Source: a virus. Taken from it: 32,698 nucleotides of DNA. The position numbers and the translations under genes are program-made. This document shows positions 8,877-32,621 of this stretch, piece after piece. The notes below the pieces were generated by a model. That model saw nothing but the letters and a program-made list of their open reading frames with translations. It made no database searches and was not told the DNA's origin. The DNA is taken from positions 1 through 32,698 of the IMG/VR virus record IMGVR_UViG_3300025120_000274; one strand, 5' to 3'. Numbering within the stretch: the first letter of the stretch is position 1; the number at the start of each line of letters is the position of its first letter.

Positions 8877-11800
8877 ATGCCAGAATTTATCCATTCCTTC
8901 ACTAGGGGGAAAATGAATAAAGATCTTGATGAGCGATTGGTGCCAAATGGCGAATATCGTGATGCTTTAAATTTAGATATTGCAAACTCAGAAGGATCAA
9001 ATGTAGGTGCTTTACAAAATGTAAAAGGTAATGTGGAGCTAAGAGGTAAAGCCGACGACTTAAATGGCTGGCAGGCAAATTATATAGAGGATTTGTCTAA
9101 TCCTGTTTGTATTGGATCAATAAGAAACGATATAGATGAAAAAATATATTGGTTTATTGCTTCTGACAATGTGAGCGCTATTGCTGAGCTTGATACTACA
9201 ACTGGATATATTTACCCTATATTGGTGGATAAAAACAATATATTAAAGTTCAGTAAAGACTATTTAATAACCGGTATAAATATATTAGACAAGTTTTTGT
9301 TTTGGACAGACGATCAGACAGAACCTAAGAAAATTAACGTTGAAAAGTTTAAGGCTGGCTCTTGTGATTTTAATACACACACAAAAATACCCGAATGGAA
9401 TCCAGACCAAGATAATTATACAGAGGTTAACTGCGGGTTTGTTGGAGCAACAGAGCCGGACTTTACAGAAGAAGATGTAACTGTAATTAAAAAATCCCCT
9501 CTTACAGCACCAACCATCAATGCAGCGGCATCGCCTTTTGGGAACGATATAGCTGGTACAGGGATTGATCCAGTTTATGCTTTTGCAGATGCCCCTATCC
9601 CCGGCCAAACGACAGGATTTGAAAATTTTACCTATACTCCTCAGGTCTTGATAGACCCTCTCGTACAAGAATCATTACCTACATATGGTGAATTTTTAGC
9701 GAACACAACGGGGCCAAACGGCAACCCAACCTATTATAACAATAGTAATCTTCCTGCAAATTGGAACGGAAGAGTCAATTTTACTTTAGAAAGTATTTAT
9801 GGAACAGACCCGGCTACAGGAGAATCTGTTTGGCAAATAAATGATATTATATTTTTGCAAGGATCAAAAACTGACGATTTTAATGAAACGCTAGAATATC
9901 AGGTTACTATAAAAATTACAGCTATAAACAATCTTGTAATAACCGGAGAAATTCAGGCTATTTCTAGTGGTATATTAAGATTTTTAGATATAAATCTTAA
10001 TCCTTCCCTTGTAAGTTGGGAAATTGTTTTAAAGGAGCAGGATCCGATGTACGAGTATGTTTTTCCAAGATTTGCTTATAGGTGGAGGTACATAGACAAT
10101 GAATATTCTGCATTTTCTCCTTTTTCCAAAGTAGCTTTTATCGGGAATAGATTTAAATACGTATCTTCGGATGGGTATAATATAGGTATGACAAATAATA
10201 TAAGAAAGCTTATTGTAGAATCTTTAACCCATGGGTCCGAAGAGGTTGCTGAGATAGAAATATTATATAAAGAATCCAATAATACATCAGTTTACTCTAT
10301 AGACTCAATAAAGAAAAAAGAATTTGCTCCCTATAATGCTGGAGCACCGGCTCTTCCTACAATATTTGAAATTAAATCTGAAGTTATAGGCCAAACTGTA
10401 CAAGCAAATCAACTTTTGCGCCCATGGGATAATGTTCCTAGAAAAGCCAAGGCCCAAGAAATTATAGCAAATAGAGTGGTATATGGCAACTATTTGCAAA
10501 ATTATACAGTAGATTCAACCCTGGATTTAAAAGTTAGCACAACTAATATTGCTCACCCAGGTAGTAGTAATGTAGAAAACCCTGAGGTAACGCTTGAGGA
10601 GTCGGAGATTAGGATGCCGCATGAATCTTTAAAAACAATTAGAACTTATCAAACAGGAATTGTGTTTAAGGACGAATTCGGAAGAGAGACCCCTGTTGTT
10701 ACAAATAAAAATGCGTCTATAAAATTAGAAATAAATAATTCAGATAAATTAAATAAAATAACTGTGGAGCCCATTAGCTCTGCTCCTAGCTGGGCAACTC
10801 ATTATAAGTTTTTTGTTAAAGATACATCTAACGAGTATTACAATTTAGCTTTAGATAGGTTTTACGAAGCAGAGGACGGTAATGTATGGTTATCTTTCCC
10901 CTCTTCAGAAAGGAATAAGGTTGACGAAGAAACATATTTGATACTTAAAAAGCAGCATGACAACAACATTGCCATTGAAAATTTAGTAAAATACAAAATA
11001 TTATCGATAAAGAGCAGCGCTCCCGATTTTATAAAAACTTTTGATATTGCAGTGGTGCAGGGTAATGCTACTAATCTTCAAGGTTTTGAACCTGGATTTG
11101 TGCAAATTAGTTTTAATTCAACCACGGATTTTAGCGGGAAATTGCAAGGTGGGTTTTTAGTGGAAATTTTTTCCGGAGGAGTGTCTGATAGATATATAAT
11201 AAGCGGAGGCGAATGTACTGGATCAACTACCTTTAATGTTACCATAGATCTAGAAAGAGAACTTGGCCAAGATACCGCGTTTTTGCAAGGCGCTACTGGG
11301 GCAAATATAAGAATATATGAACCTAAAGTGGAAAATGAACCTGAATTTGAAGGTAGGTTTTTTGTAAAAATAAATAGAGATTTTGCTTTTGACACAAATA
11401 TTATAGCGCCTTTTGACGCTTTGGAAAAAAGATATGGTATTTTAGCAAGTTTAGACTTTAAATCTCCAGAAGCATATCAAAATATAAATAGTGGGTGGGG
11501 GAATAGCACGAGATGGCACAGAATGGGCTGGCATCATATTGATAGAGGAGAAGCGGGTACAGATTCTGGCTGTAGATCACGATATCGAAGAGTAGGGCAT
11601 GGTCAAGTGGGTAACAATATTGCTCAAGGTATTATAGATATTTTTGGAGTAGTTCAATACGATAGCCAATTTTTAGGGTGTATTTTTTCAGGGCCAAAAA
11701 GTGTAATGCACGAAAGAGGTTGCAACGGAAGCGGAGGAGGAACTGCTTGCGGGCAAACATTTTACGATGATGTGGCAGCCGGTTCTTTAATAAGAATAGT

Positions 11801-14486
11801 AATGAACGACGGCACCAAAACGGAGCCTTATCGAGTTAGAAGAGTAGAAAAAAGCTCTAGTCATTTTAGAGGAAGAAAAAGAGGAGCTTGCACACTAGGC
11901 TGCACGGATTGCCAGAAAAACACGGATGGGAATAAAGCTTGTACAATGGCTATAGAGTTAGTTCGTCCTATATCAGATTTATTTGTAGGCAATGGAACCA
12001 CAGCAGCACTTAACAATATAAAAGGCTACGAATTAGTAAGAGAAATAATAAGCGACAGAAATAAACTTTTAACTTCTACAAATCCCGCAATATTTGAAAC
12101 TGAGCCTAAGGAGGCTGTTGATTTAGATTTATATTACGAATCCTCTAACGCTTTTCCGATAGCTCAATATAATTCTACTCAAACTTTAGATTATTATAAT
12201 TGCTTTTCTTATGGGCAAGGAGTGGAATCAAATAGGATTAGGGATGATTACAACGCTCCTACTATAGACAAAGGGCCAAAGTTATCGGCACCTTTAGATG
12301 AGCCATACGCAGAGGAAAGAAGAGGTAGTGGCATGATATTTTCTCAGATATACAACTCAACATCGGGAATAAATAGATTAAATCAATTTATACAAGCAGA
12401 GCCTATTACTAAGGATTTGAACCCTATACATGGTACTATCCAAAAAATGCACGCACGGGACACTGACGCTATTGTTTTGTGTGAGGATAAATGCTTTAGA
12501 ATATTAGCAAATAAAGATGCGTTATTTAATGCCGATGGGAGCGCAAATGTAACTTCAAATCAGGCTGTTTTAGGCCAAGCTGTACCGTATGCAGGCGAGT
12601 TTGGTATTTCAAAAAACCCTGAATCGTTTGCATCATATGGATTTAGAGCTTATTTTTCAGACAAAAACAGAGGCGCAGTAATAAGACTCTCTGTAGACGG
12701 TATTACAAATATAGCTGAAAAAGGTATGACAGACTTTTTTAATGATAATTTAAAAGCGTCTACCAATATAATAGGTAGTTATAATGATAGAAAAGACTTA
12801 TATAATTTAACAGTAGATTCTTTATCAACTCAGTGGCAAAACGCTTTTAATACTAGCCAAACCTACCAATTGAACCCAGACTGTAATGCTGGATCGATTA
12901 CAGCTTCCTTAGAGGGGACAACCATATCTTTTAAAGAAACCGTTGACGGTTGGACAAGCCGCAAATCTTTTATACCAGAAAGCGGGGTTAGTATAAATAA
13001 TTTGTATTATACATTTAAAGATGGCAGAATATATGAGCACGGATTGAATGTAGCAGCTAATAATTTTTATAGAGTTCAGCACGAAAGTTCTTTTAATTTA
13101 TTAATTAATGAACAGCCTAATATTGTAAAAGGATATAGCACTATAAACTATACCGGAACAAGATCAAGAAGACTCGAATACCAACATAATCAAAAATTTT
13201 ATTCTATAGCAGAAATAAACGCTCTTCAGGTTATACCAACAAGTGTCCAGCAAAAAAGGCCAGGGTGGTATGTAAATTATATTAAAACAGACCTTGAAGG
13301 AGGAGAAGTAAAAGAATTTGAGAAAAAAGAAGGTAAGTATTTTAACTATATAAAAGGTTTAGAAATATTTAATGATTGTGATCTTATAGGCGACGGTATA
13401 GACAACCCGGATATAATTGATGCAGATCCACAGAATTATATATTAACGTTTACTATTGATCCTACTTGCAGTGACACAGGAGGCACAACGCCTGACACAA
13501 TACAATATTTTGTTAACATATGGGCCGGTAGAAAAGCTTTGGCCAACAACACTATTGATTTGGATATAGAGCCAATAACATCAAGTGCACAAGATGTTAA
13601 ATGTGCTATTGAAAATTTCTACACAACTATAACTCCTTTCCAAAATTACGCGCAAGTTGTAAACACGGGGACAGTGTTTTCTTACGTATTTAGTGATGGC
13701 TTGCAGGCTGGGACTCAAATGTATAATCACCTAACCAATGAGGCCATAACTCAAGCAGGCGCTTATTTATTTGTAAATACACCAGCTGATCAAACGTCAG
13801 ATATAGTTAACCATGCAGGGTTAGACGTAAATAATCCAATAGCCGTTCCGGCATCTTATTATGTAATGATATTAGGGGCAGATGGTAAAATTGCATCTTA
13901 TACACAATATAATACGCTTAACCCATGCGTAGGAGATCCTGAAAAAGCAGTATACACTTTTAGCAATTATTCATCAAGTAAGTTTCCTTTTGAAACACCC
14001 AATGTTGCTGTTATTACACATTATAATCCAACAATAGGCGGGACTTCTACAGATGCTCAATTAATTTGTGCACACAAAAATGCATTTAGCGAGTATTTTG
14101 CAAACGCATTACCAGGATGTTCACCCCCTAGCGGTGCAGAGCCTTGTAAAACGGCTAGTGGCATTGGATCTCTTGGGTATTATTATTCGGCAGCACAAGG
14201 CGGATCAGACACTATCGCTGTAGGCACTCAGCTTTATGGTTACAGCGCATCTCAAGAACAATACATACCAGCTTTCCCAAATGGATATGTTGGCATTGTT
14301 GACATAACTAACTATAATAATAATTTAATATTACCTGGAAGAGTAGGGACAACATTTACGCCACAAAGTTTTTGGGATAATGTAGCTACTCTTGATAATA
14401 AGTGGAAAATAATAAGAATAGATAGCAATGGAGTAATTACTCACTTAGACCAGATAAATCAGATTACAAACCCAACATGCCCTTAA
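8877..14486 (+). CDS. Large tail tube / stabilisation protein with propeller-like N-terminus, 1869 aa
   Basis: This is probably a tail nozzle component in the place of T7 gp12 (tail tubular protein B), greatly enlarged. The N-terminus KMNKDLDERLVPNGEYRDAL is the hallmark of the stabilisation/tail proteins of crAss-like and marine podoviruses. It continues into beta-propeller-like repeats, including KIYWF at 89-93 and FLFWTDDQTEPKKINVE with WTD at 143-145. A block near residues 1228-1265 (VPYAGEFGISKNPESFASYG, then AYFSDKNRGAVIRLS) matches a block I know from structural proteins of marine phages. Between them lies a cysteine-rich stretch with Cys 899, 935, 949, 958, 1005, 1009, 1012 and 1022, and a Trp/His motif at 880-887. 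The C-terminal 400 residues are repetitive beta-rich and may be receptor-facing. Its length is over twice that of T7 gp12 (794 aa), so it may combine tube and fibre-anchor roles. Confidence 0.7.
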   Translation: MPEFIHSFTRGKMNKDLDERLVPNGEYRDALNLDIANSEGSNVGALQNVKGNVELRGKADDLNGWQANYIEDLSNPVCIGSIRNDIDEKIYWFIASDNVSAIAELDTTTGYIYPILVDKNNILKFSKDYLITGINILDKFLFWTDDQTEPKKINVEKFKAGSCDFNTHTKIPEWNPDQDNYTEVNCGFVGATEPDFTEEDVTVIKKSPLTAPTINAAASPFGNDIAGTGIDPVYAFADAPIPGQTTGFENFTYTPQVLIDPLVQESLPTYGEFLANTTGPNGNPTYYNNSNLPANWNGRVNFTLESIYGTDPATGESVWQINDIIFLQGSKTDDFNETLEYQVTIKITAINNLVITGEIQAISSGILRFLDINLNPSLVSWEIVLKEQDPMYEYVFPRFAYRWRYIDNEYSAFSPFSKVAFIGNRFKYVSSDGYNIGMTNNIRKLIVESLTHGSEEVAEIEILYKESNNTSVYSIDSIKKKEFAPYNAGAPALPTIFEIKSEVIGQTVQANQLLRPWDNVPRKAKAQEIIANRVVYGNYLQNYTVDSTLDLKVSTTNIAHPGSSNVENPEVTLEESEIRMPHESLKTIRTYQTGIVFKDEFGRETPVVTNKNASIKLEINNSDKLNKITVEPISSAPSWATHYKFFVKDTSNEYYNLALDRFYEAEDGNVWLSFPSSERNKVDEETYLILKKQHDNNIAIENLVKYKILSIKSSAPDFIKTFDIAVVQGNATNLQGFEPGFVQISFNSTTDFSGKLQGGFLVEIFSGGVSDRYIISGGECTGSTTFNVTIDLERELGQDTAFLQGATGANIRIYEPKVENEPEFEGRFFVKINRDFAFDTNIIAPFDALEKRYGILASLDFKSPEAYQNINSGWGNSTRWHRMGWHHIDRGEAGTDSGCRSRYRRVGHGQVGNNIAQGIIDIFGVVQYDSQFLGCIFSGPKSVMHERGCNGSGGGTACGQTFYDDVAAGSLIRIVMNDGTKTEPYRVRRVEKSSSHFRGRKRGACTLGCTDCQKNTDGNKACTMAIELVRPISDLFVGNGTTAALNNIKGYELVREIISDRNKLLTSTNPAIFETEPKEAVDLDLYYESSNAFPIAQYNSTQTLDYYNCFSYGQGVESNRIRDDYNAPTIDKGPKLSAPLDEPYAEERRGSGMIFSQIYNSTSGINRLNQFIQAEPITKDLNPIHGTIQKMHARDTDAIVLCEDKCFRILANKDALFNADGSANVTSNQAVLGQAVPYAGEFGISKNPESFASYGFRAYFSDKNRGAVIRLSVDGITNIAEKGMTDFFNDNLKASTNIIGSYNDRKDLYNLTVDSLSTQWQNAFNTSQTYQLNPDCNAGSITASLEGTTISFKETVDGWTSRKSFIPESGVSINNLYYTFKDGRIYEHGLNVAANNFYRVQHESSFNLLINEQPNIVKGYSTINYTGTRSRRLEYQHNQKFYSIAEINALQVIPTSVQQKRPGWYVNYIKTDLEGGEVKEFEKKEGKYFNYIKGLEIFNDCDLIGDGIDNPDIIDADPQNYILTFTIDPTCSDTGGTTPDTIQYFVNIWAGRKALANNTIDLDIEPITSSAQDVKCAIENFYTTITPFQNYAQVVNTGTVFSYVFSDGLQAGTQMYNHLTNEAITQAGAYLFVNTPADQTSDIVNHAGLDVNNPIAVPASYYVMILGADGKIASYTQYNTLNPCVGDPEKAVYTFSNYSSSKFPFETPNVAVITHYNPTIGGTSTDAQLICAHKNAFSEYFANALPGCSPPSGAEPCKTASGIGSLGYYYSAAQGGSDTIAVGTQLYGYSASQEQYIPAFPNGYVGIVDITNYNNNLILPGRVGTTFTPQSFWDNVATLDNKWKIIRIDSNGVITHLDQINQITNPTCP

Positions 14487-17655: not shown

Positions 17656-19065
17656 ATGGGGAATAGACAATTAATAACAGGAGCAGGGGCTATAGCTCCT
17701 AAGTTTGTTGATTACGGGAAAGGAGCTTTCAGCAGCAATCCCGGAAAAAGAGGCATGTCCAAGGGCGAAGCAATGGGTCTTGCTAGAGAGGCTAAATTAG
17801 CCGCGGATGACGCAGCCTTAAAAGGTTATATAAGTGGACTAAATACAGAAATGGATTTAGTATCATTGTCTGATGCCGAGCAGGCGTCTATTAAAGGATA
17901 TTTGTTTGAGCAAAAAAAAGAATATGCCAGGCTTGCGAATGAAACTATGCAATTAGATGCGCTTAGCCCTTTATTTTTAGAAAATAAAAATAAGATGGAT
18001 GCTATAAAGCAATCCTTTATAAATTTAAAAGGTCAAACAGATAAATTCAAAGAAAGAAAAATACAATACTTAGATGACTTTGAAAACGGTAGATTGTCAA
18101 AAGGAAATAAAACAGATGATTATAGTAGAGCTAGTAAAGTGTACGGCGGAGGGGCATTAACAATAGATCCCAATGGAGGTATAAACATAATCACAGATAA
18201 TGGAACAAAATTTACTAAATATTCTGACGTATCTGACCCTTTTCTTAAAGATTTTAAAACCGCAGACGAAATACTTGAACAAAACAATAAATTATACACC
18301 GCTGGTGTTGAATTAGACGCTTCTAAGGAAGCTTTACTAAGAAATAAGCTTAAATCCCAGTTGTCACAAGACGGGTCCTTAGAATCAATCGTAGAAGATG
18401 GACTTATTAACAATGAAAGGTTAGATGTAGACTTAGAATCTTACGAAACAAGAGAGGCGGCTATAAACGATGTTGCTGAAATATTATTACAAGGTTACCG
18501 GGATAGTGCTATTGCAGGTAAAAAAGAAAAAGACATTAAAAAAGGAAAAATAACCAGTGATGTCAATGACGACGATGAGCTTACGCCTAGCGATACATAT
18601 CTTGGCTATGAAAGAAACTCTCAAAAAGACAAAAATAACTTCAAGGCAAACTGGGCTGATACGCAGAGTATTGCGCAACAAGATGCTGAGTTTATGAAGA
18701 CTAGGGTTATGGGGAATAATAACGAGGCAGAGGATTACAGAAATGGATCTAAGGGAGCCGCGGTAATGAAGCTGAACAGAGAGACCGGTAAGCTAGAAAT
18801 AATGGCTGAGCCTAAGGCAAGCTCTATCCGAAGCCAGAAATGGTATTCAAGCTTTGATTCTAAAAAATACAGAGGAGAAGCAAAATCAAACCAAAGATGG
18901 CAGCTAGCTCCGGCAATGATTATAGAAGCTGGGGGGCCTAGACCTGTAACGGTGTGGAGAGCCAACAGTAATGACGATTGGCAAATACTTAAAGAAGAAG
19001 ACTATCAAAAAGAATTTAGTGGTACGGCGGGCCTAGAGGGAGGCGCATCGCAATTTAATAATTAA
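17656..19065 (+). CDS. Putative internal virion protein, T7 gp15 position, 469 aa
   Basis: The family is not recognised with certainty. The N-terminus (MGNRQLITGAGAIAPKFVDY) is followed by a long helical region, about residues 35-140, rich in Ala, Lys and Asp (GEAMGLAREAKLAADDAALK). The middle is mixed, with a short beta hairpin region (GGALTIDPNGGINIITDNG) and a charged helical part (about 195-290). The C-terminus is polar, ending AGLEGGASQFNN. It lies between the gp14-like gene and the giant gp16-like gene (5-base gap), so it may be a second ejected core protein, but it is shorter than T7 gp15 (747 aa). The gene start follows a 28-base A/T-rich gap. Function is inferred only from order. Confidence 0.58.
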   Translation: MGNRQLITGAGAIAPKFVDYGKGAFSSNPGKRGMSKGEAMGLAREAKLAADDAALKGYISGLNTEMDLVSLSDAEQASIKGYLFEQKKEYARLANETMQLDALSPLFLENKNKMDAIKQSFINLKGQTDKFKERKIQYLDDFENGRLSKGNKTDDYSRASKVYGGGALTIDPNGGINIITDNGTKFTKYSDVSDPFLKDFKTADEILEQNNKLYTAGVELDASKEALLRNKLKSQLSQDGSLESIVEDGLINNERLDVDLESYETREAAINDVAEILLQGYRDSAIAGKKEKDIKKGKITSDVNDDDELTPSDTYLGYERNSQKDKNNFKANWADTQSIAQQDAEFMKTRVMGNNNEAEDYRNGSKGAAVMKLNRETGKLEIMAEPKASSIRSQKWYSSFDSKKYRGEAKSNQRWQLAPAMIIEAGGPRPVTVWRANSNDDWQILKEEDYQKEFSGTAGLEGGASQFNN

Positions 19066-19070
19066 TAAAT

Positions 19071-22000
19071 ATGAACGAAAAGGCATTACAATACTCATTT
19101 GATTTATTTACGTCAGATGGCTATAATGGAACATTCGATGATTACAAAAAGTTAATAGCGTCAAATAAAGGCGCTGTAGATTACTCTTATAAGTTATTTT
19201 CAGAAGACGGATATAATGGTTCTTTAGAAGATTTCTCAGCATTAGTAGGAGTGGGAAAGCAACAAGCCCCAGTGATGGAGACCACGAGCGCCGGGGCATC
19301 AAGCAACGTGGCAAATGGGGCATTCATATCGGAAGATGGTTCTTCGGGCTCACCAGAGAATGATGCATTAAAAAGAAAAACAGAAATACTACTTGATCCG
19401 CTTTATAAAAGAGAAAAAGATGATGATGGCAATACTTTAAGAAACGAACAAGGAATTGCAATATATGGAGCTGACCCACAGCAGGGCAAATATTTATTTT
19501 CACAAGATGAAGAAGAAGGCGGCGCGGCTTTAAGAGAAATTTATAGCGGCACAAACTTAATATTTGAAGAAGTAAATCAAGGGCAATTTTCAGATGAAAA
19601 TTTAGCTAGGCTAAAAGGCGCTAATCCTGAAGCTGGAGGTGGATTTGAATTTATAAAGGTAAAAGTACCAGGCGCTAATGATCACGTTGTTTTAGAATTT
19701 AATACAGATTTTGCAGGCTTAGGATCTAAAAAAGAAAAAGAGGCTTTAAATGTAGCCAACCTAAACTTACTAAAAGGCTATTTAGAAAAAAACATAGACA
19801 AAATAACTGTTTCTGATGATGTTGAGCAAAATAGAAAGAAAGAGTCCGAAATAATAGTAAATGAGCTTAACACTGCTTTAAATTCAGATGAAGAATATAA
19901 CTCTAAAGTTTCTAAAACTAATGATAAATATGATCCTAAGAATCTTTTTATAGATGCAGGGTTTGCAAATAACCAGTTTGATGGGAGCATTATTGATCGA
20001 GTGGTGCCTTCTGCCGGAATGACGGCGTCGCCAGTCATAACAACAGAAAAAGTATTTAAAGAGGGCAAACTAAAAAGTCAATACGATAAAGAACTTGAAA
20101 GATTATTAAAACTACCTGAAGATAAACTAGCTAAAAAAATTGAAGAGGCCCAAAAAAAATTAGGGGATGAAAATAAGGTTGATATAACCAAGCTGGCTAA
20201 AATGAACATTTTGGAAATTGCTAAAAAATCAGAGCTAGCTCAATTAAAAACCGAATACACATCTTTATATATAAATGAAAAAGAAGATCGTCAAGCAGAG
20301 TTTTATGCAGGTTTAAATTTTGCAAATCAAGAAATACAAAGAGAAGCAGACTTTACTATAGAGACAATAAACACTGTGATACAAGACAGTGAAAATAAAA
20401 TTAATGTTATTGATGCCGCACAAAGTTACGCAACAGCTGGATATGCTAGCAAGTCCGAAATGGAGGCACTTGAAAATTATGTGCTTAATAACAGCGATGT
20501 GACACTTGGTGAGCTTAACGCTAACATGTCAATACAAGAAAAAATTGACAAGAATGGAACTTCCAATACTTTTTATAGAAATAAATTTATTGAAGAAAAT
20601 TTAAAAGATATATACGGTAATGCTTTTAATGACTTTGAATTAAACAAAAAAGTTTTTGAAGAGCAGCAGTCGAATTTGGAAAGTATTGCAGAAGAAGGCG
20701 GAGGTATATCTTTGGCAATGAACGCCGCTTCTCGTAATTATAATGAATTAGAAAAATACATAGCTAATATAGGACTTGGGGGCTTAGAGCTTGTTGGAGG
20801 GGGATTAAATATAGCTAGAAATACTATATTAACCGCGGCAGAAATAGCAAACCCATATGGTGCACCAGTAGGAACCGCTATAAAATCCGAATCTGCAATT
20901 ACTGAATTTTTTGAAAGCGCAAAAGATCAAAGAGCAGGTTATGTTGCTGATGTTAAATTTGAAGGCGGAGAAACCGGAGCGTTTGGTTCTGTTACAAATT
21001 TTGGTAAATTTGTTGCCCAAGAGGTTTCAAATCAAATACCTATTTTTGCGACCGTAGCGCTTTCTGGTGGCTATGCGGGCCTTGTGCTTGGTATAACAAC
21101 CGCTGGGCAGAAACAAGCGGAAATGACAAACTTAATAGCATCCGGCGAAAAAGATTATAGCGCGGGTAATATATGGCTAACAAGTTTGGGGCACGGTGCA
21201 GCTGAGGGCGTATTTGCACAGCTTTCAACAGTGCCTATAATGAAAAGAGCTAAGTCAAGGTGGATGCGAGCAGGTGGATCTGGAGCGGACGATTTGCTTA
21301 ATAATTCCACGAGAAACTGGTTTAAAGAAAACTCTAAAGCCACTTTAACAGATATTCTCCTGGAGCCTGGAGCTGAAATGGCTACACAATTTACCCAAAA
21401 CGTTATAGACGGCAATGACCCGTTTGAGGGCATAGGGCATGCTGGATTCAGCGCGTTAGGATTTAGCTTGGTTTTAAGTGGGGTGCCATTCGCAAAAGGA
21501 ACATTAAATTCTAGATTTTCTTCTTATGAGGGTCTAAACAAATCAAGGGCTTTAGACAGCGAAATTAATGATTTAGCAAACAGATATAATTCTTTAGATA
21601 AAAGAACAAGGGAGGCTATATCTCTAAAAAATCAAATAGAGCAGAAAAAAAGCGAATACCTGGATGTTGTAAAACAAGAAACAGAAGCTTTTGAAAAATC
21701 TGTTAGTGAAAACGGCTTGGAAAGACTTATAGCATTAAGAGCTAAGCAAGTTAATTTACAAAATCAAGCAAAAGATGTTTTGCAGTCTGATATGAGCGAG
21801 ACTGCTAAACAATTTGAAATTACCAGATTACAAAGAGAATTTGCTACTCTTAATATGATTTTAAAAAGAACTAGATCTTTAGATTCAAAGCGCAAGTTTG
21901 AGGTTGATTTTAGAGCATTAGAGGGCACCAATAAAACAGCTTATGATAACTACCAAAACGAAGCAGCATCTCAGCTAACTTCAGAAAAAGACGGGAAAAC

Positions 22001-25000
22001 ACCGACTGAAGAAGATATAGACAGGAGAGCTTATGACTTATATTTTGCCGACGTGGTTAGGCAGAGAAATAACGAAACCAATACTAATTCCATAAAAATT
22101 GAAAGCTTTGAAACTGTAGCCGAGGCTGTTGCTAATTTAGACTCTAGAATTGCAAAAATACAATCAGATATTGAAAGTGGCAAAATAGATCCTGCGAAAG
22201 GTGCTGAATTAATTTTTAACATAGAATCTGGGAAAAGAAATATAGAACTAGGCGGCGATGGATTTGCAGTACCAACTCAAGACGGCAGAAAAACTGGCCC
22301 AACAATTGCTGTGGTTGAAAACCAGGTTAAAAACCAAAGGAAAGCTATTAAAACTCATGAAATTGGGCATCAAGTAGCCTGGAAGGTTTTAACAAACAAT
22401 TTAGCCGGCTTAGAATCTATTACAGACCAACTGTTAAAGTCAATGCAGGCTTTAGATAATAAAACATATAAAGAGTTTTTAAACGACAGTAGAATATACA
22501 AAACTAAAATTACAGGAGGTTTATCAGTTGACAGGGTGGACAATGATGGTAATTTCCTTGGGGGCGATTTAGATAACGCTGAAGTTCTTTCTGTTTTCAT
22601 GGAATATGTGGCAGAAGGAAAGTTTACATCAAAACAAAAAGCAAGAGGTATTAGTGGGGTTTTTGGAGCAGTAACTCAGAAAGCTTTAAGTTCTTACCAT
22701 AATTTTGATTTTCATGGCACCGACGATGCTTACAATTTTGTTGTAGCGATGGCACAAAAAATAAAAGACGGTACTTTAACAAGAAAAGATATTTCTAATA
22801 TTAAGTCTTCCGATCTAATAAAAAATGCAAGAAAAAATGCAACGCCTGAACAAAACAAGTTAATAACCCAAAACAGTGCGGGGCTAGAAGCACAGTTAAA
22901 TGCTTTAGAACAGCAGCTAAGTGATAATGAAATTGACTATGATACGTTTGAGCAAAAAGTATCAGCTCTTGAATCAGCGTTAAAGAACAAACCAACTACA
23001 AAGCCTAAGGCTAAGCCTAAAAGAAAAGAAGGCAAAAAAGATGAAACTTTAAAAGAATCTACCGCAAGATCTAAAAAAATACTTGACAGAATAGGTAATG
23101 ATCCTAATGGCTATAATCCTAACAATTCTAAAATTGTTGAAGTATTATCAGGTATAATAGAGTCTAAATCTAAGGTATTTAGAACTGCTGACGGTAATGT
23201 TAGAAATTTAACTAACCTGCCTGGGTTTGAAATGCAAAATATGGTGCAAGAAACCATAACCGGTTTAGTACCAATGATTAACAAGTTTGATCCTAAAATA
23301 AACGATTCTTTATATGGTTATTTAAATTCTCAAATAGCTAATAAAATGCGTGGAGCTTTAAAATCTGGTAAAGTTACAGACCAAAAGTTTACAGAAGACG
23401 TTTCTACGGCTAAAGGTGTTGCGGCAGATAATACTACAACACTCCGTGAAGACCCTGGCTATAAAAAAATAAAAGACTCTAATATATTTGAACCTGAGGT
23501 TATATCCAATATTAAAAGTAAGGTTGTTTCCACTGTTAGGGTTTTAAAAAGCAAACTAGGTGTGGCTGTAGGTAAAAACCAAAACACATCACCATTGGTT
23601 GCTGAATTTACAGAGTCTATATCTAAACAGGCAGACATAGATATTAAAAAAGCTATAGGCGGCAAAAAGGATAAGAAGCTTAGAAATTGGACCATTGAAA
23701 ACAAACAAGCCATTGTAGAAAATGCTACTACCACATGGCTAATGGGTAAAGACGATGGCACTAAAGTTCTAGGCGGTATACCGATAGCTATAGAGAAAAA
23801 GTTAAAATCTACTGGGCAATTTGTAGGTTATCCCGAATGGATAGGCCAAGAAATAGCAAGGGAAACTACGGAGGGAAGAGGCGCTACTGCAGGTAATCAA
23901 ATAGTAAGGCGCGTTCCTTTTGATGAAATATCTGATACAGATTTTGCAGATTTTGTAACAAAAACCGATGGCACACCTATAAGAGGCAGAAAAGAATCTT
24001 TGTCAAAAGAATTAGCCACAGAGCTAGCTTCAGAAATATTTGTTGATGCCATAGAGACAGGATCAGGACCTGTTTACGATGCATTCGCAAATAACCGCCA
24101 GGCAATGAAAGATGTTTTATTAGAAAACACAACTGGGGAAATTGTAAAACAATTTGAAAGAGGTACCGTTAAATTTAGCTCAGCATTAACGCCAGATGTT
24201 ATATTTAGCACTTTAAATGCAATGACTGAGGCTACGCAAACCAAAAGAAGAAAAGCAATAAAAGGCGTTAAAAGCCAATATCCAGAGGCAGCTGCAGATA
24301 TAGAAAAATATATTGTTAAGCCTTACGCAAATCAAATGCAAATACTTTCTCAAATGGTTAGGGACGGCGAAGCAAAAGATAAAGGATTTGCCTATGAAAT
24401 AGTGTTTAGAAAGGAAATAAATGATTTTGCTGGAAAAAACAAAAATTTTAAAATAAAAAATATTAAGTTAGGGCAAAACGGGATAGACATACAATACGAG
24501 TTTAAAGGGCAAAACCAGGGGATAGAGTTAAAATTAAATAAAGATTCTAGACTTAGCAGTTTTACTATAAACAATTATGGTGCTTTATTAAATGACGGAT
24601 CCCCTTCTTTAACTATAAATACTGATTTTAACGAAGATATTATAAGTGCGTTAAAGAAAAACCAAAACGTAAAAAAATATTTGCAAAAAGCAGTCGATCT
24701 AGGCGCCACGTTAGATAAAAGCGGTATTGTGTATATAAATGACAATATATATTCTGCCTTAAAGGATGAACTTCAATTTAAAGATTTTTATACTAACGCC
24801 GCAACTTTGGTTGACGCGCCGTGGTCTTTTATATCTGATATATATACAAAAAATAAAGCTTTTCCTGTAAACACTATTAACTTTAGGGATATAGGTGCTT
24901 TTTGGATGGGGCAAAATAGCTTAAATGTAAATAACCTACCTGAATTTGCTACTTATGATTCAAATGACAATCAAGAAAACGGGGTTAAAGTTAGAATGCA

Positions 25001-28000
25001 ATTTCAAACAAGAGCCATTAACCCAAAAACACCAAGAAAAGATGGAATGAATAGACGTCTTGTTTTAAAAGGGTCTAATTCTATAAAAAACGCAAGCTTT
25101 AGTGATAAGCTTTCTAAAAAATCCATTACAAACCTAAGTGTGCAAGGCGGAATGAAGCAATTTTTTGATTCTGCTTCACCAATGACAGCAATGAGCAAAG
25201 GTGCTATAGAAACAAACTTAGCGCTGTCTCAAGCTTTAAATCCTGTTAAGGATATGAAAAAGTTTGATCCTTACGGCATGGCTGATGTAATTGCTGCAAG
25301 AATATTTAAAAAAGAATTTGAAAACTTACCGAGTTTTAGACAAACATATAATAATCTTACTGAAGCACAGAAAGTTAAAGTAAGAGAGGAAATGATTAAA
25401 AATGGTATTGCTAGAATGAGCAAAGGTATAAGCGTTTGGGATTTTGACGATACCTTAGCAACTACAAAAAGCAAGGTGTTATACACAATGCTTGACGGTT
25501 CTACGGGATCATTAACTGCTGAACAATTTGCTAAAGAAGGTGACATACTAGCAGATCAAGGCGCCGCATTTGATTTTTCTGAATTTGAAAAAGTAATGAA
25601 AGGGGCTAAAGGCCCTATGTTTAATAAAGCTGTCGAAAGAAATAAAAAGTTTGGCAATGATAATGTCTATATACTCACTGCTAGACCAGCGGCTTCATCA
25701 GTTGCTATACACGAGTTTTTAAAAGGTATAGGCCTAAATATTAAGCTGGAGAATATAGTTGGACTTGGAGACGGTACCGCAAAAGCAAAAGCCGATTGGG
25801 TTAAAGGAAAAGTTGCAGAGGGTTATAATGATTTCTATTTTGCGGACGACGCTTATAAAAATGTAAAAGCTGTTCAGCAAGTTTTAGAAGCCACGGATAT
25901 TAAATCTAAGGTTCAACAAGCTATGGTCAGGTTTAGCGCCCCCACAGACCCCAAATTGCTTTCAGACGCTATTAATCAAATGATCGAAAGAAGGTCTGGT
26001 ATTGATGCTAACATTGAAATATCAAAAGCAAGGGCTCAGCAGTTAGGTAAAGGCAAAGGTAGATTTGATTACTTTTTACCACCCAATGCTGAAGACTTTC
26101 AGGGTTTATTATATAAATTTTTAGGCAAAGGAAAGCAAGGCGATGCGGATATGCAGTTTTTCAAAGACAACCTATTTGATTCTTTTAATGAAGCCGAAAA
26201 TTCAATAAGTTCTTTTAGACAAAGATTAGCAGAAAACTTAGAAATATTAAATACAGAGCTTGGTAATATAGAAAAAGATATAGATTCAGATACAATAAAA
26301 AGAATAGAAAAATCTGGGTTCACAGCAGACCAGGCTGTTAGAGTTTTTGTTTGGAATAAAAAAGGTGAAACTATTCCAGATTTAACCGCTATAGAAAAAT
26401 CTAAGCTTGTAGGCATTGTTATGAGCGATACAAAGCTTTTAGCTTATGCAAATGAGCTTATAAAAATTACAGAGCAATTTGGGGGTTATCCGCCTCCAGG
26501 TAATACTTGGTATGCTGGCAATTCTAAAAGTGATTTATACCAATACGCTAACGAAAATGTTAGAAGTAAGTTTTTAGAAACATGGCAAGCTAATGCAGAT
26601 GCAATGTTTAGCCCTGAAAACATGACTAAAATAGAGGCCGCGTATGGCAAAGACTTTGCTAAAAATTTAAAAGAAGTTCTTAGAAGAATGAAAACAGGCA
26701 GCAATAGACCTGTTGGCGGCAGTGAAATGGGTAATCAAATGATGAACTACATAAATGGATCAGTTGGTACAATTATGTTTTTAAACATGAGGTCCGCAGT
26801 TCTTCAAACAATATCAGCGGTAAACTTTTTAAACTGGCATGACAATAATTTATTTAAAGCTGGCGCCACATTAACAAACCCCAAGAACTTTGTTAAAAAC
26901 TTTATGGAAATAATGAATTCGGATTTCCTAAAACAAAGAAGGAACGGATTAGAAATAAATGTTAATGAAGCTGAGATCGCGCAGGCTGCCGCGCAAAGTC
27001 AGAACAAAGCAAGAGCTATATTTAATTATATTATAAAATTAGGGTATAAGCCAACACAGTTTGCTGATAGTTTTGCAATAGCGGCCGGTGGAACTCCAAT
27101 GCTTATAAATAGAACAAAGACTTACCAAAAGCAAGGCATGACCTACGAGGAGGCCAGGGCTAAAGCTTTTACAGACTTTAGAGCTATAGCAGAAGAAAAC
27201 CAACAGTCATCTAGAACAGATAGAACGTCTAATTTACAGGCTGGTAATTTAGGAAGATTTGTGTTTGCATTTAATAATACTCCTTTTCAAATGACTAGAT
27301 TGTTTAAAAAAGCCACTCTTGATTTAGTTAACGGCAGAGGGGATTTTAAAACCAACGCTAGTAAAATGCTTTATTACGGAGCCATACAGAATATAATTTT
27401 TTATTCCTTACAGCAAATGTATATGGCATTTCTTTTCGGAGCAGATGAAGACGAAGCAGATAGAGATAAAAAGATGGTGGATCGAACAAAAAGAATAGCT
27501 AATAGCACTGTTGACGGTATACTAAGAGGTTCCGGTCTCCCGGGCGCTATAATAAGCACTATAAAAAATACTGTATTAGAATACCAAAAACAAGAAGCCA
27601 GAGGCGACTTTCTTGCTGACCATGGAAAAACATTAGTAGCTGGATTAAATTTTTCACCACCATTAGGGTCTAAAGCTTCAAGAATTTTATCAGCATTGAA
27701 TTCTAAAAAGTTTGAAAAAACGCAATTTGATTATTTGAAAAATAAAGCAAAAATAGTTTCAGCGCTTACTAATATTCCTGTTGACAGACTTATGACTAAA
27801 ATGGATAACTTGTATGTTGCTACGACGCAGCCCATAGATACCTGGAAAAGAATATTTCTTATAAATGGGTGGGACCAATGGTCATTAGATGTTTACGATG
27901 ATTTAAAAGAAATAAACAAAGGAAATGAGCCGGAAAAGCCTAAAGTAGATAGAAGCAAAATAATGAAAGAGGTTTGGCGTAAAAGGAAAGAAGAGGATAA

Positions 28001-28058
28001 AAGAGTAAGAGACAGCATTTTCAATGAAGAATTAAGAAGCTCATTTAATAAAAAATAA
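19071..28058 (+). CDS. Giant multi-domain internal virion/ejection protein, 2995 aa
   Basis: This is probably an ejected inner-core protein in the place of T7 gp16 (1318 aa), more than twice that size. In order: a duplicated 30-residue motif at residues 7-59; a charged, coiled-coil-rich region to about 555; a hydrophobic, Gly-rich stretch (about 563-810, for example GLGGLELVGGGLNIARN and FATVALSGGYAGLVLGITT) that could contact membrane; long helices (about 825-960); an HExxH metallopeptidase motif at 1096-1100; a Lys-rich linker (about 1330-1350); a candidate PD-(D/E)XK nuclease (1772-1825); and a HAD-type motif set (2118-2275). Its C-terminal part (about 2720-2835), with RFVFAFNNTPFQMTRL and GILRGSGLPGAIISTIKN, resembles blocks I know from very large virion proteins of marine phages. 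No lytic transglycosylase signature was found. Late expression is inferred from position. The reading frame is intact for 8.9 kb with no break. Confidence 0.75.
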   Translation: MNEKALQYSFDLFTSDGYNGTFDDYKKLIASNKGAVDYSYKLFSEDGYNGSLEDFSALVGVGKQQAPVMETTSAGASSNVANGAFISEDGSSGSPENDALKRKTEILLDPLYKREKDDDGNTLRNEQGIAIYGADPQQGKYLFSQDEEEGGAALREIYSGTNLIFEEVNQGQFSDENLARLKGANPEAGGGFEFIKVKVPGANDHVVLEFNTDFAGLGSKKEKEALNVANLNLLKGYLEKNIDKITVSDDVEQNRKKESEIIVNELNTALNSDEEYNSKVSKTNDKYDPKNLFIDAGFANNQFDGSIIDRVVPSAGMTASPVITTEKVFKEGKLKSQYDKELERLLKLPEDKLAKKIEEAQKKLGDENKVDITKLAKMNILEIAKKSELAQLKTEYTSLYINEKEDRQAEFYAGLNFANQEIQREADFTIETINTVIQDSENKINVIDAAQSYATAGYASKSEMEALENYVLNNSDVTLGELNANMSIQEKIDKNGTSNTFYRNKFIEENLKDIYGNAFNDFELNKKVFEEQQSNLESIAEEGGGISLAMNAASRNYNELEKYIANIGLGGLELVGGGLNIARNTILTAAEIANPYGAPVGTAIKSESAITEFFESAKDQRAGYVADVKFEGGETGAFGSVTNFGKFVAQEVSNQIPIFATVALSGGYAGLVLGITTAGQKQAEMTNLIASGEKDYSAGNIWLTSLGHGAAEGVFAQLSTVPIMKRAKSRWMRAGGSGADDLLNNSTRNWFKENSKATLTDILLEPGAEMATQFTQNVIDGNDPFEGIGHAGFSALGFSLVLSGVPFAKGTLNSRFSSYEGLNKSRALDSEINDLANRYNSLDKRTREAISLKNQIEQKKSEYLDVVKQETEAFEKSVSENGLERLIALRAKQVNLQNQAKDVLQSDMSETAKQFEITRLQREFATLNMILKRTRSLDSKRKFEVDFRALEGTNKTAYDNYQNEAASQLTSEKDGKTPTEEDIDRRAYDLYFADVVRQRNNETNTNSIKIESFETVAEAVANLDSRIAKIQSDIESGKIDPAKGAELIFNIESGKRNIELGGDGFAVPTQDGRKTGPTIAVVENQVKNQRKAIKTHEIGHQVAWKVLTNNLAGLESITDQLLKSMQALDNKTYKEFLNDSRIYKTKITGGLSVDRVDNDGNFLGGDLDNAEVLSVFMEYVAEGKFTSKQKARGISGVFGAVTQKALSSYHNFDFHGTDDAYNFVVAMAQKIKDGTLTRKDISNIKSSDLIKNARKNATPEQNKLITQNSAGLEAQLNALEQQLSDNEIDYDTFEQKVSALESALKNKPTTKPKAKPKRKEGKKDETLKESTARSKKILDRIGNDPNGYNPNNSKIVEVLSGIIESKSKVFRTADGNVRNLTNLPGFEMQNMVQETITGLVPMINKFDPKINDSLYGYLNSQIANKMRGALKSGKVTDQKFTEDVSTAKGVAADNTTTLREDPGYKKIKDSNIFEPEVISNIKSKVVSTVRVLKSKLGVAVGKNQNTSPLVAEFTESISKQADIDIKKAIGGKKDKKLRNWTIENKQAIVENATTTWLMGKDDGTKVLGGIPIAIEKKLKSTGQFVGYPEWIGQEIARETTEGRGATAGNQIVRRVPFDEISDTDFADFVTKTDGTPIRGRKESLSKELATELASEIFVDAIETGSGPVYDAFANNRQAMKDVLLENTTGEIVKQFERGTVKFSSALTPDVIFSTLNAMTEATQTKRRKAIKGVKSQYPEAAADIEKYIVKPYANQMQILSQMVRDGEAKDKGFAYEIVFRKEINDFAGKNKNFKIKNIKLGQNGIDIQYEFKGQNQGIELKLNKDSRLSSFTINNYGALLNDGSPSLTINTDFNEDIISALKKNQNVKKYLQKAVDLGATLDKSGIVYINDNIYSALKDELQFKDFYTNAATLVDAPWSFISDIYTKNKAFPVNTINFRDIGAFWMGQNSLNVNNLPEFATYDSNDNQENGVKVRMQFQTRAINPKTPRKDGMNRRLVLKGSNSIKNASFSDKLSKKSITNLSVQGGMKQFFDSASPMTAMSKGAIETNLALSQALNPVKDMKKFDPYGMADVIAARIFKKEFENLPSFRQTYNNLTEAQKVKVREEMIKNGIARMSKGISVWDFDDTLATTKSKVLYTMLDGSTGSLTAEQFAKEGDILADQGAAFDFSEFEKVMKGAKGPMFNKAVERNKKFGNDNVYILTARPAASSVAIHEFLKGIGLNIKLENIVGLGDGTAKAKADWVKGKVAEGYNDFYFADDAYKNVKAVQQVLEATDIKSKVQQAMVRFSAPTDPKLLSDAINQMIERRSGIDANIEISKARAQQLGKGKGRFDYFLPPNAEDFQGLLYKFLGKGKQGDADMQFFKDNLFDSFNEAENSISSFRQRLAENLEILNTELGNIEKDIDSDTIKRIEKSGFTADQAVRVFVWNKKGETIPDLTAIEKSKLVGIVMSDTKLLAYANELIKITEQFGGYPPPGNTWYAGNSKSDLYQYANENVRSKFLETWQANADAMFSPENMTKIEAAYGKDFAKNLKEVLRRMKTGSNRPVGGSEMGNQMMNYINGSVGTIMFLNMRSAVLQTISAVNFLNWHDNNLFKAGATLTNPKNFVKNFMEIMNSDFLKQRRNGLEINVNEAEIAQAAAQSQNKARAIFNYIIKLGYKPTQFADSFAIAAGGTPMLINRTKTYQKQGMTYEEARAKAFTDFRAIAEENQQSSRTDRTSNLQAGNLGRFVFAFNNTPFQMTRLFKKATLDLVNGRGDFKTNASKMLYYGAIQNIIFYSLQQMYMAFLFGADEDEADRDKKMVDRTKRIANSTVDGILRGSGLPGAIISTIKNTVLEYQKQEARGDFLADHGKTLVAGLNFSPPLGSKASRILSALNSKKFEKTQFDYLKNKAKIVSALTNIPVDRLMTKMDNLYVATTQPIDTWKRIFLINGWDQWSLDVYDDLKEINKGNEPEKPKVDRSKIMKEVWRKRKEEDKRVRDSIFNEELRSSFNKK
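19089..19247 (+). repeat. Tandem 30-residue protein repeat at the start of the giant protein
   Basis: Residues 7-29 (YSFDLFTSDGYNGTFDDYKK core) and 37-59 (YSYKLFSEDGYNGSLEDFSA core) are two copies with a period of 30 residues. Conserved positions are Tyr8/38, Ser9/39, Leu12/42, Phe13/43, Asp16/46, Gly17/47, Tyr18/48, Asn19/49, Gly20/50 and Asp24/54. The DGYNG turn between two short helices suggests a small binding module. Confidence 0.85.
22338..22610 (+). other. HExxH metallopeptidase domain inside the giant protein
   Basis: Residues 1096-1100 read HEIGH within IKTHEIGHQVAWKVL, the zinc-binding and catalytic motif of zincin-type metallopeptidases. About 70 residues later a helix AEVLSVFMEYVAEGKF offers Glu1171 or Glu1178 as the third metal ligand, as in gluzincins. 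The possible role is processing of virion proteins or cutting of host proteins or peptidoglycan links at entry. The substrate is unknown. Confidence 0.65.
24384..24545 (+). other. Candidate PD-(D/E)XK nuclease core inside the giant protein
   Basis: A helix with GFAYEIVFRKEI (Glu1776) is followed by a strand with GIDI (Asp1806) and then GIELKLN (Glu1819, Lys1821). The order helix-E, D, E-x-K with spacing of 30 and 13 residues is the classic core of this nuclease superfamily. The motif is short and degenerate, so this is a candidate only. Confidence 0.45.
25422..25895 (+). other. HAD-type phosphatase domain inside the giant protein
   Basis: Motif I is VWDFDDTL (Asp2124 nucleophile, Asp2126, Thr2128), motif II is YILTARP (Thr2203), and the acidic motif IV is YFADDAYKN (Asp2259, Asp2260), with a lysine-rich segment (GDGTAKAKADWVKGK) between, where motif III lysine is expected. 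Order and spacing are those of HAD hydrolases such as 5'/3'-nucleotidases and polynucleotide 3'-phosphatases. The substrate is not readable. Confidence 0.75.
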
Positions 28059-28060
28059 CA

Positions 28061-28519
28061 ATGAACATACCAATTACAAAGCGCGTAATGATGCGCAAAA
28101 GCACAAATTTTCCGCCTAACCAAGAGGTAACAAAAAATGCAGATGGATCCGGTGGACCTATTAGTATAGCTAAGAAAAAAGACGCTTGTTATACTAAAGT
28201 AAAAAGTAGATACAAAAAGTGGCCCTCAGCATATGCCAGCGGAGCTTTAGTCAAATGCAGAAAGGTTGGGGCTGCTAACTGGGGTAATAGTTCTCCAGCA
28301 AAGCAAACTAAGCCTCCGGGATTTACAGATAAACTTTATATAAAAGCAGAAAAACTACAAGACAAAGCTGACGCTAAGGCGCGCAAAGCTGCAATAGCTG
28401 TTGACGAAGGTAGGGATAGAAAAGCCGATAGGCTATATAAAAGAGCGGCTAAGCTTGAAAATAGAGGAATTAAAATTGAAGAGAGAGAAGCTAAAAAAAG
28501 AAAAAAATATAAATATTAA
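28061..28519 (+). CDS. Small basic protein of a phage/giant-virus family, 152 aa
   Basis: The segment DACYTKVKSRYKKWPSAYAS followed by GALVKCRKVGAANWG is a block I recall in small proteins from many phages and some large DNA viruses of unknown function. Its two cysteines are at 43 and 66. The first 30 residues are polar. The C-terminal half is a Lys/Arg/Ala/Glu helix (AEKLQDKADAKARKAAIAVD) with coiled-coil character and a highly basic end (AKKRKKYKY), suggesting nucleic acid or virion binding. The stop overlaps the next start (TAATG). It sits between the ejection gene and the lysis genes. A nucleoid-like or internal virion role is possible, but nothing in the sequence decides this. Confidence 0.65.
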   Translation: MNIPITKRVMMRKSTNFPPNQEVTKNADGSGGPISIAKKKDACYTKVKSRYKKWPSAYASGALVKCRKVGAANWGNSSPAKQTKPPGFTDKLYIKAEKLQDKADAKARKAAIAVDEGRDRKADRLYKRAAKLENRGIKIEEREAKKRKKYKY

Positions 28520-28743
28520 TGGGATTTAAAATGAACTCGCCATTTAAAAACTTAAACCGCTGGTTTAAAGAAGAATGGAAAACACCTGGCGGTAAAAAAG
28601 ATTACAGCGATGGTGAAAATACATTTAGGCCCACTAAAAAAATATCCAAAGACACCCCAAAAACCTGGAGTGAGGTTACTCCTGAGTCCAAAAGAAAAGC
28701 CCAAAAAGAAAAAAACACTAAAGGTAGAGTTACAAAATATTAG
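28519..28743 (+). CDS. Small basic protein, 74 aa
   Basis: The family has no assigned role. The N-terminus MNSPFKNLNRWFKEEWKTPG is followed by a polar Lys/Thr/Ser/Pro-rich tail (EVTPESKRKAQKEKNTKGRV). The motif RWFKEEW with a following K-rich C-terminus also occurs in small proteins of other phages and large viruses, often beside the preceding family. The ATG at 28519 shares its A with the upstream stop (TAATG), which is why I chose it. An in-frame ATG at 28531 would give a 70-residue form beginning MNSPFKN, the more family-like start. Confidence 0.6.
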   Translation: MGFKMNSPFKNLNRWFKEEWKTPGGKKDYSDGENTFRPTKKISKDTPKTWSEVTPESKRKAQKEKNTKGRVTKY

Positions 28744-31652: not shown

Positions 31653-32621
31653 TTACCAAATGTCTTCGAAGTCTTCCCCTTCGTTAGCTTTGCTATAATC
31701 CGTCGGCCGTATTGCGAAAAAATCAGTATGAGTGACCCCGCCGGTAAGATGATAGAACCAATCAAGATTAGCCGCTGCAGCTTTGTCATACGCGAAATAG
31801 TTCCCAAGGTCAACGTACCCCAGTTCAACAAGTTTTTCATTTGCTCTCTTTTTTATAAAATGCGTAAGATCATTTGATGATATGCCTTCAATGTCCCCCA
31901 TCTCAAACATTTTGTTAATATACTTAGTCTCTAATGCCACCATAGTTTCTGCGGCTTTTACTATATCTTCTCGGCATAAATTCAGTAATTGATTGTTTTC
32001 ACTGCACATATCGCGGAAAAGCTTACAGCCCATTTTGCTGTGCAGGCTTTCATCACGAACAGACCATTTCATTTGTTGCCCGATACCCTTAAGTAAATTT
32101 CGAAGCTGAAAACTATACAACACTGCAAAAGCACTATACAAGCTAACTCCTTCAGCGAAGGCTGAAAATACAGCCAAGCTTTTACCAATGCCAACAGAAT
32201 TATCGCCGTCGTAAGCAACCAGATTATCAAATCTCTCAGCCGTTGCTGGTTCATGTAAGAATGCTTCATAGTCTTCTAATCCTAATGTTTCATTTAAATA
32301 ACTGTATGCTACCGCATGTATTGTCTCTTGTGATCCAAACATCATAGCCATTTGCTGTATCTCATACTTTGGAAACCAACTTACTACTTTTTGGGTCCAG
32401 TAATCAGAAACCGCGCACTCCGTCTGCGCGAAGCCCAATAGTATATTACCGACCAGGTTCTTTTCTTTATCATTTAGTTTTTCTTTCCAATCTTTAACGT
32501 CTCCTTGCATTGGTATTTCGGTGTGTAACCAAAATGCTTGCGCTTGCTTTAACCAACCTTCTGTGTAATATTCAGGGTATTCAAAAGGCTTATACGGTAT
32601 TCTTTTATCAAACAATCCCAT
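31653..32621 (-). CDS. nrdB: Class I ribonucleotide reductase, small subunit (NrdB), 322 aa
   Basis: This subunit forms the dimetal centre and tyrosyl radical that activate NrdA. The ferritin-like helices carry the ligands Glu68 (TECAV), Glu99 and His102 (QETIHAVAY), Glu157 (AEGVSLY), Glu191 and His194 (RDESLHS). The radical tyrosine is Tyr106, four residues after His102, as in E. coli Tyr122 after His118. The first ligand is Glu, where E. coli has Asp84; Glu is found there in class Ic enzymes, but those lack the tyrosine, so this is an intermediate combination. The C-terminus ends DFEDIW, which should dock to NrdA. The start ATG shares its A with the stop of the upstream gene (TAATG), and the length is close to that of small NrdB forms. 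It is the first complete gene of the visible - strand operon. Confidence 0.95.
   Translation of the reverse strand: MGLFDKRIPYKPFEYPEYYTEGWLKQAQAFWLHTEIPMQGDVKDWKEKLNDKEKNLVGNILLGFAQTECAVSDYWTQKVVSWFPKYEIQQMAMMFGSQETIHAVAYSYLNETLGLEDYEAFLHEPATAERFDNLVAYDGDNSVGIGKSLAVFSAFAEGVSLYSAFAVLYSFQLRNLLKGIGQQMKWSVRDESLHSKMGCKLFRDMCSENNQLLNLCREDIVKAAETMVALETKYINKMFEMGDIEGISSNDLTHFIKKRANEKLVELGYVDLGNYFAYDKAAAANLDWFYHLTGGVTHTDFFAIRPTDYSKANEGEDFEDIW

Follow-up and report, generated by a model that had tools for sequence, protein, structure and literature searches.

What is the very large protein encoded at the end of the late gene cassette of a marine crAss-type relative, and what might it carry into the host cell? 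The virus DNA that raises this question, IMGVR_UViG_3300025120_000274, was analysed as a single stretch of 32,698 bases, here called the window. The initial annotation saw motifs of three enzymes in the protein, perhaps delivered together with the phage DNA. We give an even chance to a fuller reading, in which the giant is a polyvalent cargo protein of a crAss-like, Cellulophaga-type podovirus, bearing a sigma-like domain as well as nucleic-acid end-processing enzymes.

The plus strand of the window begins with the end of TerL, the portal, a 396-aa protein, the major capsid protein and several smaller virion proteins, and continues with a 1,869-aa muzzle-like protein, a tail-fibre-like set, a 469-aa protein and the 2,995-aa giant (Table 1). 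Two small genes and an M15 peptidase (endolysin) lie 3′ of the giant, followed by ribonucleotide reductase genes on the opposite strand. The giant is the last large gene of the cassette running from TerL through portal, capsid and muzzle, ahead of the M15 endolysin, a location that parallels that in cultured relatives whose giant carries a structural annotation. It had been placed in the position of T7 gp16, which holds loosely for the last gene of a late virion cassette, but the phage itself is crAss/Cellulophaga-like and not T7-like. The window capsid and portal proteins are ~35-54% identical to those of MW202828 and of Maribacter, Flavobacterium and Cellulophaga phages, and the muzzle-like protein, judged by its sequence, marks the cassette as crAss-like. 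Because these identities and the match to the crAss muzzle domain agree, the phage is a crAss-like podovirus of the Pervago-Pachyviridae (Cellulophaga) type and no relative of T7. The host is probably a member of the Bacteroidota, as inferred from the relatives; GTDB matches of the HAD domain were set aside as host evidence, being metagenome-bin contigs with conflicting taxa.

Other genes around the giant have relatives too. Several related phages have a gene of ~420-650 aa at the same spot upstream of the giant, and the 469-aa protein found there in the window is a candidate co-ejected partner. Just 3′ of the giant, a DUF5872 protein (window 28519-28743, E 1.1e-12) is 64-91% identical in several relatives. 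Viruses that share only ~25-50% identity in their capsid, muzzle and giant proteins are ~75-94% identical in NrdA and NrdB (window 29303-31024 and 31653-32621, both on the minus strand), which suggests that the reductase genes are either under strong constraint or exchanged.

Table 1. Coordinates of the giant, its modules and two neighbouring genes in the window.
Feature	Position	Strand	Details
Muzzle-like tail protein	8877..14486	+	crAss_MUZ_C E 3.7e-5 (just under cut-off); phrog_14478 E 7.5e-137
469-aa protein directly upstream of giant	17656..19065	+	synteny and similarity in many relatives
Giant polyvalent protein, 2,995 aa	19071..28058	+	intact frame
N-terminal module, residues 1-94, two repeats (YSFDLFTSDGYNG... 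/ YSYKLFSEDGYNG...)	19071..19352	+	
Conserved domain, residues ~511-991, candidate virion/membrane module	20601..22043	+	homology to structural-annotated giants
Zincin-like metallopeptidase, residues ~1040-1240	22188..22790	+	HExxH 22356-22370, Glu1171 22581-22583
Sigma-70 region-2-like domain, residues ~1325-1444	23043..23402	+	Pfam Sigma70_r2 match 23226-23366
Conserved mainly helical module, residues 1450-1715	23418..24215	+	40-65% identical in close relatives
PD-(D/E)XK nuclease-like domain, residues ~1716-1960	24216..24950	+	E1776, D1806, E1819, K1821
HAD phosphatase, polynucleotide-kinase/phosphatase type, residues ~2108-2290	25392..25940	+	
C-terminal module, residues ~2291-2960	25941..27950	+	most constant part of family

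The giant frame is intact, as first read, being open throughout with zero internal stops. Pfam and PHROGs leave nearly all of it unnamed, PHROG 415 being the single useful match, and a tblastn search with the complete sequence gave no match in 50,697 phage records. This blank reflects sequence divergence and not absence, as homologous giants do exist: at least 100 other viruses encode a comparable giant beside virion genes. We compared 78 distinct homologous giants of at least 2,000 aa, selected by their C-terminal module, which is hence counted in all 78. Throughout this set the order of 511-991 domain, zincin, sigma-like domain, nuclease, HAD and C-terminus is unbroken. By profile, the 511-991 domain was detected in 26 of the 78, the zincin in 72, the sigma-like domain in 38, the HAD in 62 and the PD-(D/E)XK domain, rare in this family, in five; these counts are lower limits, and the contigs are not phylogenetically independent. 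All three enzyme motifs of the initial annotation survive the comparison with the giants of related phages. Its list of modules was incomplete, as a sigma-70 region-2 domain had been overlooked, so that domains of four disparate predicted activities are found on one chain.

Public records treat some of these genes differently. Giants at the same position in two relatives (L003 741-12320 and L004 13229-18718) are annotated as 'reticulocyte binding/rhoptry protein' and 'tRNA methyltransferase', which are probably misannotations. Two other viruses encode the giant in two overlapping frames (L088 1834-6591 and 6567-8756; L107 5497-9333 and 9315 onward), which are either natural two-gene forms or sequencing frameshifts.

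The HExxH motif at residues 1096-1100 was part of the first reading and is borne out by conservation. His1096, Glu1097 and His1100, together with Glu1171, the third ligand downstream of the motif, are the sole invariant columns among 72 aligned sequences, and because of this invariance the HExxH is not a chance motif. The giant thereby presents a trait that is frequent, without being universal, among phage polyvalent proteins: a zincin-like metallopeptidase with an HExxH and a Glu ligand downstream. A phmmer search of the giant, and profile searches with HAD and zincin, against PDB sequences gave nothing useful, and the zincin and HAD assignments are therefore based on motifs and conservation, with the fold in addition for HAD. 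Foldseek E-values for models of the giant are never significant alone, and fold matches are used here as support only.

Residues 1385-1425 (GFEMQNMVQETITGLVPMINKFDPKINDSLYGYLNSQIANK) were first recognised by eye as resembling sigma region 2. Pfam Sigma70_r2 is the only family matched by the window fragment (E 0.0036-0.013) and is matched by the 32.7-kb window record at E 7.9e-5 and 17.9 bits; scores for the window are 15.8-17.9 bits where the Pfam cut-off is 24. Profiles of the relatives reach further. When a profile built from 21 giants, with no sigma factor included, was compared with all PDB sequences, the sigma factor 8b3z came first (E 2.5e-6) and sigma factors made up most of the 36 sequences listed. 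With a second set of 26 giants all eight PDB matches at E <1 were sigma factors, the best only at 0.039, and all six families matched by domain members among the 18,950 NCBIfam models were sigma factors, below the NCBIfam cut-offs. In Pfam, DUF2963 matches more members of the second set than Sigma70_r2 does, but with weaker E-values. Aligned by hhalign with region 2 of E. coli RpoD, RpoS, RpoH, FliA and RpoE, the domain profile scored 34.7, whereas control windows outside the domain elsewhere in the giants reached at most 12.6; the five windows that scored above 12.6 are, as far as they can be placed, overlaps of the sigma-like domain itself. T4 gp55 scored 26.2 against the giant domain profile and 14.4 against the bacterial sigma set.

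The structural model agrees with these profiles. The AlphaFold2 model of the domain has a pLDDT of mostly 90-97, and for model residues 345-455 sigma factors are the only coherent matching family (7xya Z 6.2, 7xl3 5.8, 6pfv 5.7), although Z scores of 5-6.2 are moderate where domains are helical and count only when taken together with the profile results. The TM score to 8b3z is 0.63 on the target, and the sigma-factor alignments cover regions 1.2-2. Roles in sigma-70 have been assigned to Tyr430 and to two promoter-melting tryptophans; the position matching Tyr430 is aromatic (Y, W or F) in all 21 members, and the two tryptophans are missing from the giant domain. Homology of residues ~1325-1444 to sigma-70 region 2 is thus well supported as a sequence-based prediction. 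We do not file the giant as a sigma factor, because the region 4 helix-turn-helix has no Pfam match anywhere in it, although a divergent copy could escape such a search; no sigma region 3 was found in the giant either. Searching with 64 residues of the sigma-like domain of a relative retrieves 192 viral stretches. Each of the 80 best falls within a long frame, in most cases with a recognisable zincin upstream, and 52 of the 53 complete frames among these measure 2,113-3,345 aa. The domain was not detected in the giants of the cultured relatives. In one set of relatives, comprising most of L091-L108, the sigma-like domain is present and no HAD was detected.

Conservation also bears out the PD-(D/E)XK core that had been proposed. 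Glu1776, Asp1806, Glu1819 and Lys1821 are among nine invariant columns of 320 in an alignment of six sequences that are 23-29% identical to the window, and two further giants carry the same D...ExK. These relatives were taken from the giants already collected; when the nuclease region served as a single query sequence against viral contigs, no relative came up. PDDEXK_9, Mrr_cat_2 and Hjc are among the best Pfam families matched by the nuclease-region members, in each case weakly, and the AF2 model of the region has an alpha-beta-beta-beta-alpha topology at low to moderate confidence. A fold search with a 1,200-residue model gave none among the matches listed for the PD-(D/E)XK part, nor a fold among them for the C-terminal module, which says little at that model size.

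The HAD phosphatase is the best conserved stretch of the giant, with a mean column identity of 63%. All HAD motifs (DxDxT, T/S, K and DD) are present: the previously named residues Asp2124, Asp2126, Thr2203, Asp2259 and Asp2260, and likewise Lys2240, the candidate motif-III lysine, are invariant or >90% conserved in 50 HAD/C-terminal sequences. The modelled fold is that of a HAD, and a fold search with this model placed two RNA- or polynucleotide-processing enzymes at the top of 981 aligned chains. The first is Pnkp1 from the RNA-repair complex of bacteria (Z 10.7, 2.7 A over 123 residues), the second T4 polynucleotide kinase/phosphatase (PNKP; Z 9.9); other HADs follow from Z 9.7 down, and chains whose Z lies within 1 of the T4 PNKP value count as ties with it. 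PHROG 415 (polynucleotide kinase) matches the window giant at residues 2114-2269 (E 8.5e-4) and ten of 17 giants, at best with E 3.7e-7. Fold and PHROG family, two independent methods, together point to a predicted polynucleotide 3′-phosphatase. Searching with the HAD segment retrieves at least 83 viral contigs at 50-80% identity, and nearly all of the frames retrieved are 2,300-3,600 aa long with one HExxH ~950 residues upstream. Some relatives (L042, L059, L088 and a number of those in L134-L213) show two matches per giant to HAD motif I or to the HAD profile, and the doubled match is an insertion into, or a duplication of, the HAD.

The remaining modules have fewer names. The N-terminal repeats are common to the MW202828 giant (35% over 79 aa) and a few others. 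Residues 563-810, initially described as a hydrophobic segment, are only weakly so, with one stretch, 656-676, exceeding 1.6 (Kyte-Doolittle, 19-residue window); this region instead belongs to a conserved domain common to other giants. That domain, 511-991, is the part of the giant common to the cultured relatives, with homologues in the giants of Cellulophaga phi38:1 (gp101) and phi13:2 (gp127), Tenacibaculum Gundel_1_74 and elemoE. The helical module at 1450-1715 was modelled with high confidence and no fold was named; just 3′ of the sigma-like domain, it carries the highly conserved QADIDIKKAxGGK...NxxTTWLMGKD. The unit 2118-2940, comprising HAD and C-terminal module, is conserved as a whole at ~40-50% identity in ~80 contigs. 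The C-terminal module is kept in relatives with no HAD and possibly serves packaging or ejection.

How far does this giant resemble known virion cargo? The positional, homologous giants of phi38:1, phi13:2, Gundel_1 and elemoE are annotated as structural or virion structural, labels that may rest on similarity. In crAss001 the large cargo proteins gp45, gp46, gp47, gp49 and gp50 were detected by mass spectrometry and are encoded after the muzzle gene (PMC10172136), a place that matches that of the window giant. The giant domains showed no convincing homology to gp45, gp46, gp49 or gp50. In crAss001 gp47 (L133 21120-28145) there is an HEAFH at residue 2157, near the end, with a faint profile match to the giants' zincin; the word 'zincin' is missing from the crAss001 structural paper (PMC10172136). 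The giant thus shares an HExxH and a corresponding gene position with gp47, and no sequence homology with crAss001 cargo beyond that faint match. Like the N4 virion RNA polymerase and crAss001 gp47/gp49/gp50, it combines a zincin with a transcription-related domain in a late cassette, but where those systems carry a polymerase the giant has a sigma-like domain for the host enzyme. We rejected the giant as a virion RNA polymerase because the polymerase motif D.DGD is absent from it; the motif is likewise absent from the long frames of the window and of the complete relative MW202828.

The closest known kind is that of the polyvalent proteins, described as injected multi-enzyme phage proteins, some with zincins (Iyer et al. 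2017, PMC5512222). Like the giant, these are very large, multidomain proteins encoded beside late virion genes, in which a zincin hub is combined with disparate enzymes and injection with the DNA is presumed. The giant differs in its sigma region-2 domain, its polynucleotide-type HAD and its lineage-specific C-terminal module, and the terms 'sigma factor' and 'phosphatase' are missing from the main text of PMC5512222. The suggestion of an undescribed system is therefore best narrowed: the kind is already known, and the architecture, with a sigma-like domain and a PNKP-type HAD, is new. Our search of the open-access literature found no report of a virion, packaged or injected sigma factor. Among single-domain comparisons, T4 gp55 shares region-2-type sigma homology and has no recognised region 4, but is a small, free protein made during infection, whereas the giant's domain sits inside a virion-linked protein. 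T4 Pnkp and bacterial Pnkp1, the best structural matches, share fold and motif set with the giant's HAD, which differs in being embedded in a giant protein with no kinase domain detected. T7 gp16 resembles the giant as a very large, presumed ejection protein at the end of a late cassette, but Pfam and PHROG family searches, the sole basis of this comparison, gave neither homology nor a lytic transglycosylase match.

Delivery of several enzymes with the DNA, as first proposed, is still the best reading: it gains from the three enzyme assignments and from a virion-cargo setting that has good support in synteny and in homology to structural-annotated giants. We propose a model where the giant would be made late and packed into the virion and, as crAss001 cargo and T7 ejection proteins suggest by analogy, would exit through tail and muzzle before the DNA or together with it. 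The 511-991 and C-terminal modules may serve packaging and membrane passage. The zincin, in the role proposed for such zincins, would free domains from the chain, either in the head or in the cell. The sigma-like domain, following its homology, could then dock on the beta-prime clamp of host RNA polymerase, the site of sigma region 2, and either steer the polymerase to early phage promoters, as T4 gp55 does, or bar it from host promoters. The PD-(D/E)XK nuclease and the polynucleotide-type 3′-phosphatase would act on nucleic-acid ends at entry, whether by cleaning or repairing incoming DNA ends, mending RNA damaged by defences or cutting host nucleic acid. T4 gp55 has region 2 and lacks region 4, so a region-2-only factor can work. 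With no D.DGD in the long frames of the window or MW202828, entry-stage transcription should use the host enzyme. This absence, the gp55 precedent and a 3′-phosphatase beside a nuclease are the reasons why we favour transcription takeover combined with end processing. Of the roles suggested at first, end processing of nucleic acid is retained for the HAD, and general nucleotide or defence roles are less favoured.

The family comparison leaves room for other readings. The giant could be mainly an ejection or structural protein, an inner-channel or DNA-translocating component in a role like that of T7 gp16, whose enzymes are auxiliary and whose sigma-like helices are packing or an inert remnant. 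That the C-terminal module is the most constant, that 511-991 is common to the cultured relatives and that the sigma-like and nuclease modules come and go would all fit; we nevertheless find this unlikely, as the catalytic residues are strictly conserved wherever the modules occur, the HAD exceeds all other stretches in conservation and the sigma-like domain is kept in those 192 viral stretches. It is very improbable that the giant is a late, non-structural multi-enzyme protein lying beside virion genes by chance, given a cassette-end position conserved across families and homologues annotated as virion structural.

Two further readings concern what the enzymes would do in the cell. T4 Pnkp and Rnl1 mend cut RNA later in infection, and the HAD and the nuclease-like domain, possibly helped by ligases of host or phage, might mend defence-cut tRNA or rRNA right after entry. 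The closest HAD folds and the PHROG polynucleotide kinase match speak for such a repair kit, as do a tRNA-splicing ligase annotated in phi38:1 and a weak T4_Rnl1_C match (E 0.0021) in one of 17 giants, which would fit RNA repair beside a polynucleotide phosphatase. We hold it to be improbable, since Pfam and PHROG detected no kinase or ligase domain in the giant, T4 pseT and rnlA have no direct sequence match in the giants, and PD-(D/E)XK enzymes mostly cut DNA. A low probability also attaches to counter-defence or host takedown, in which the nuclease would degrade host nucleic acid, the sigma-like domain sequester RNA polymerase and the zincin cleave host proteins. Polyvalent proteins have been proposed to target host defences (PMC5512222), and variable middle modules would suit an arms race, but HAD and zincin are widely conserved and not fast-changing, and no link leads from the domains to a particular defence system.

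Returning to transcription takeover with end processing, we consider it possible, at somewhat less than an even chance, that very common aquatic phages, probably of Bacteroidota, inject a giant-borne sigma-like domain that seizes host RNA polymerase from the first minute, along with a protease and end-processing enzymes. If true, phage transcription would have a third mode of starting, alongside the injection of a complete RNA polymerase, as in N4 and crAss phages, and sole reliance on host sigma. A sigma-like domain brought in by the virion would then be a novel answer to the problem of early transcription, and an evolutionary counterpart of the RNA polymerase that gut crAss phages carry in their virions. 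A large class of giant phage genes now unannotated or misannotated would be accounted for and, as cultured relatives exist among Cellulophaga, Flavobacterium and Tenacibaculum phages, the entry stage of abundant, almost unstudied marine and freshwater phages becomes testable.
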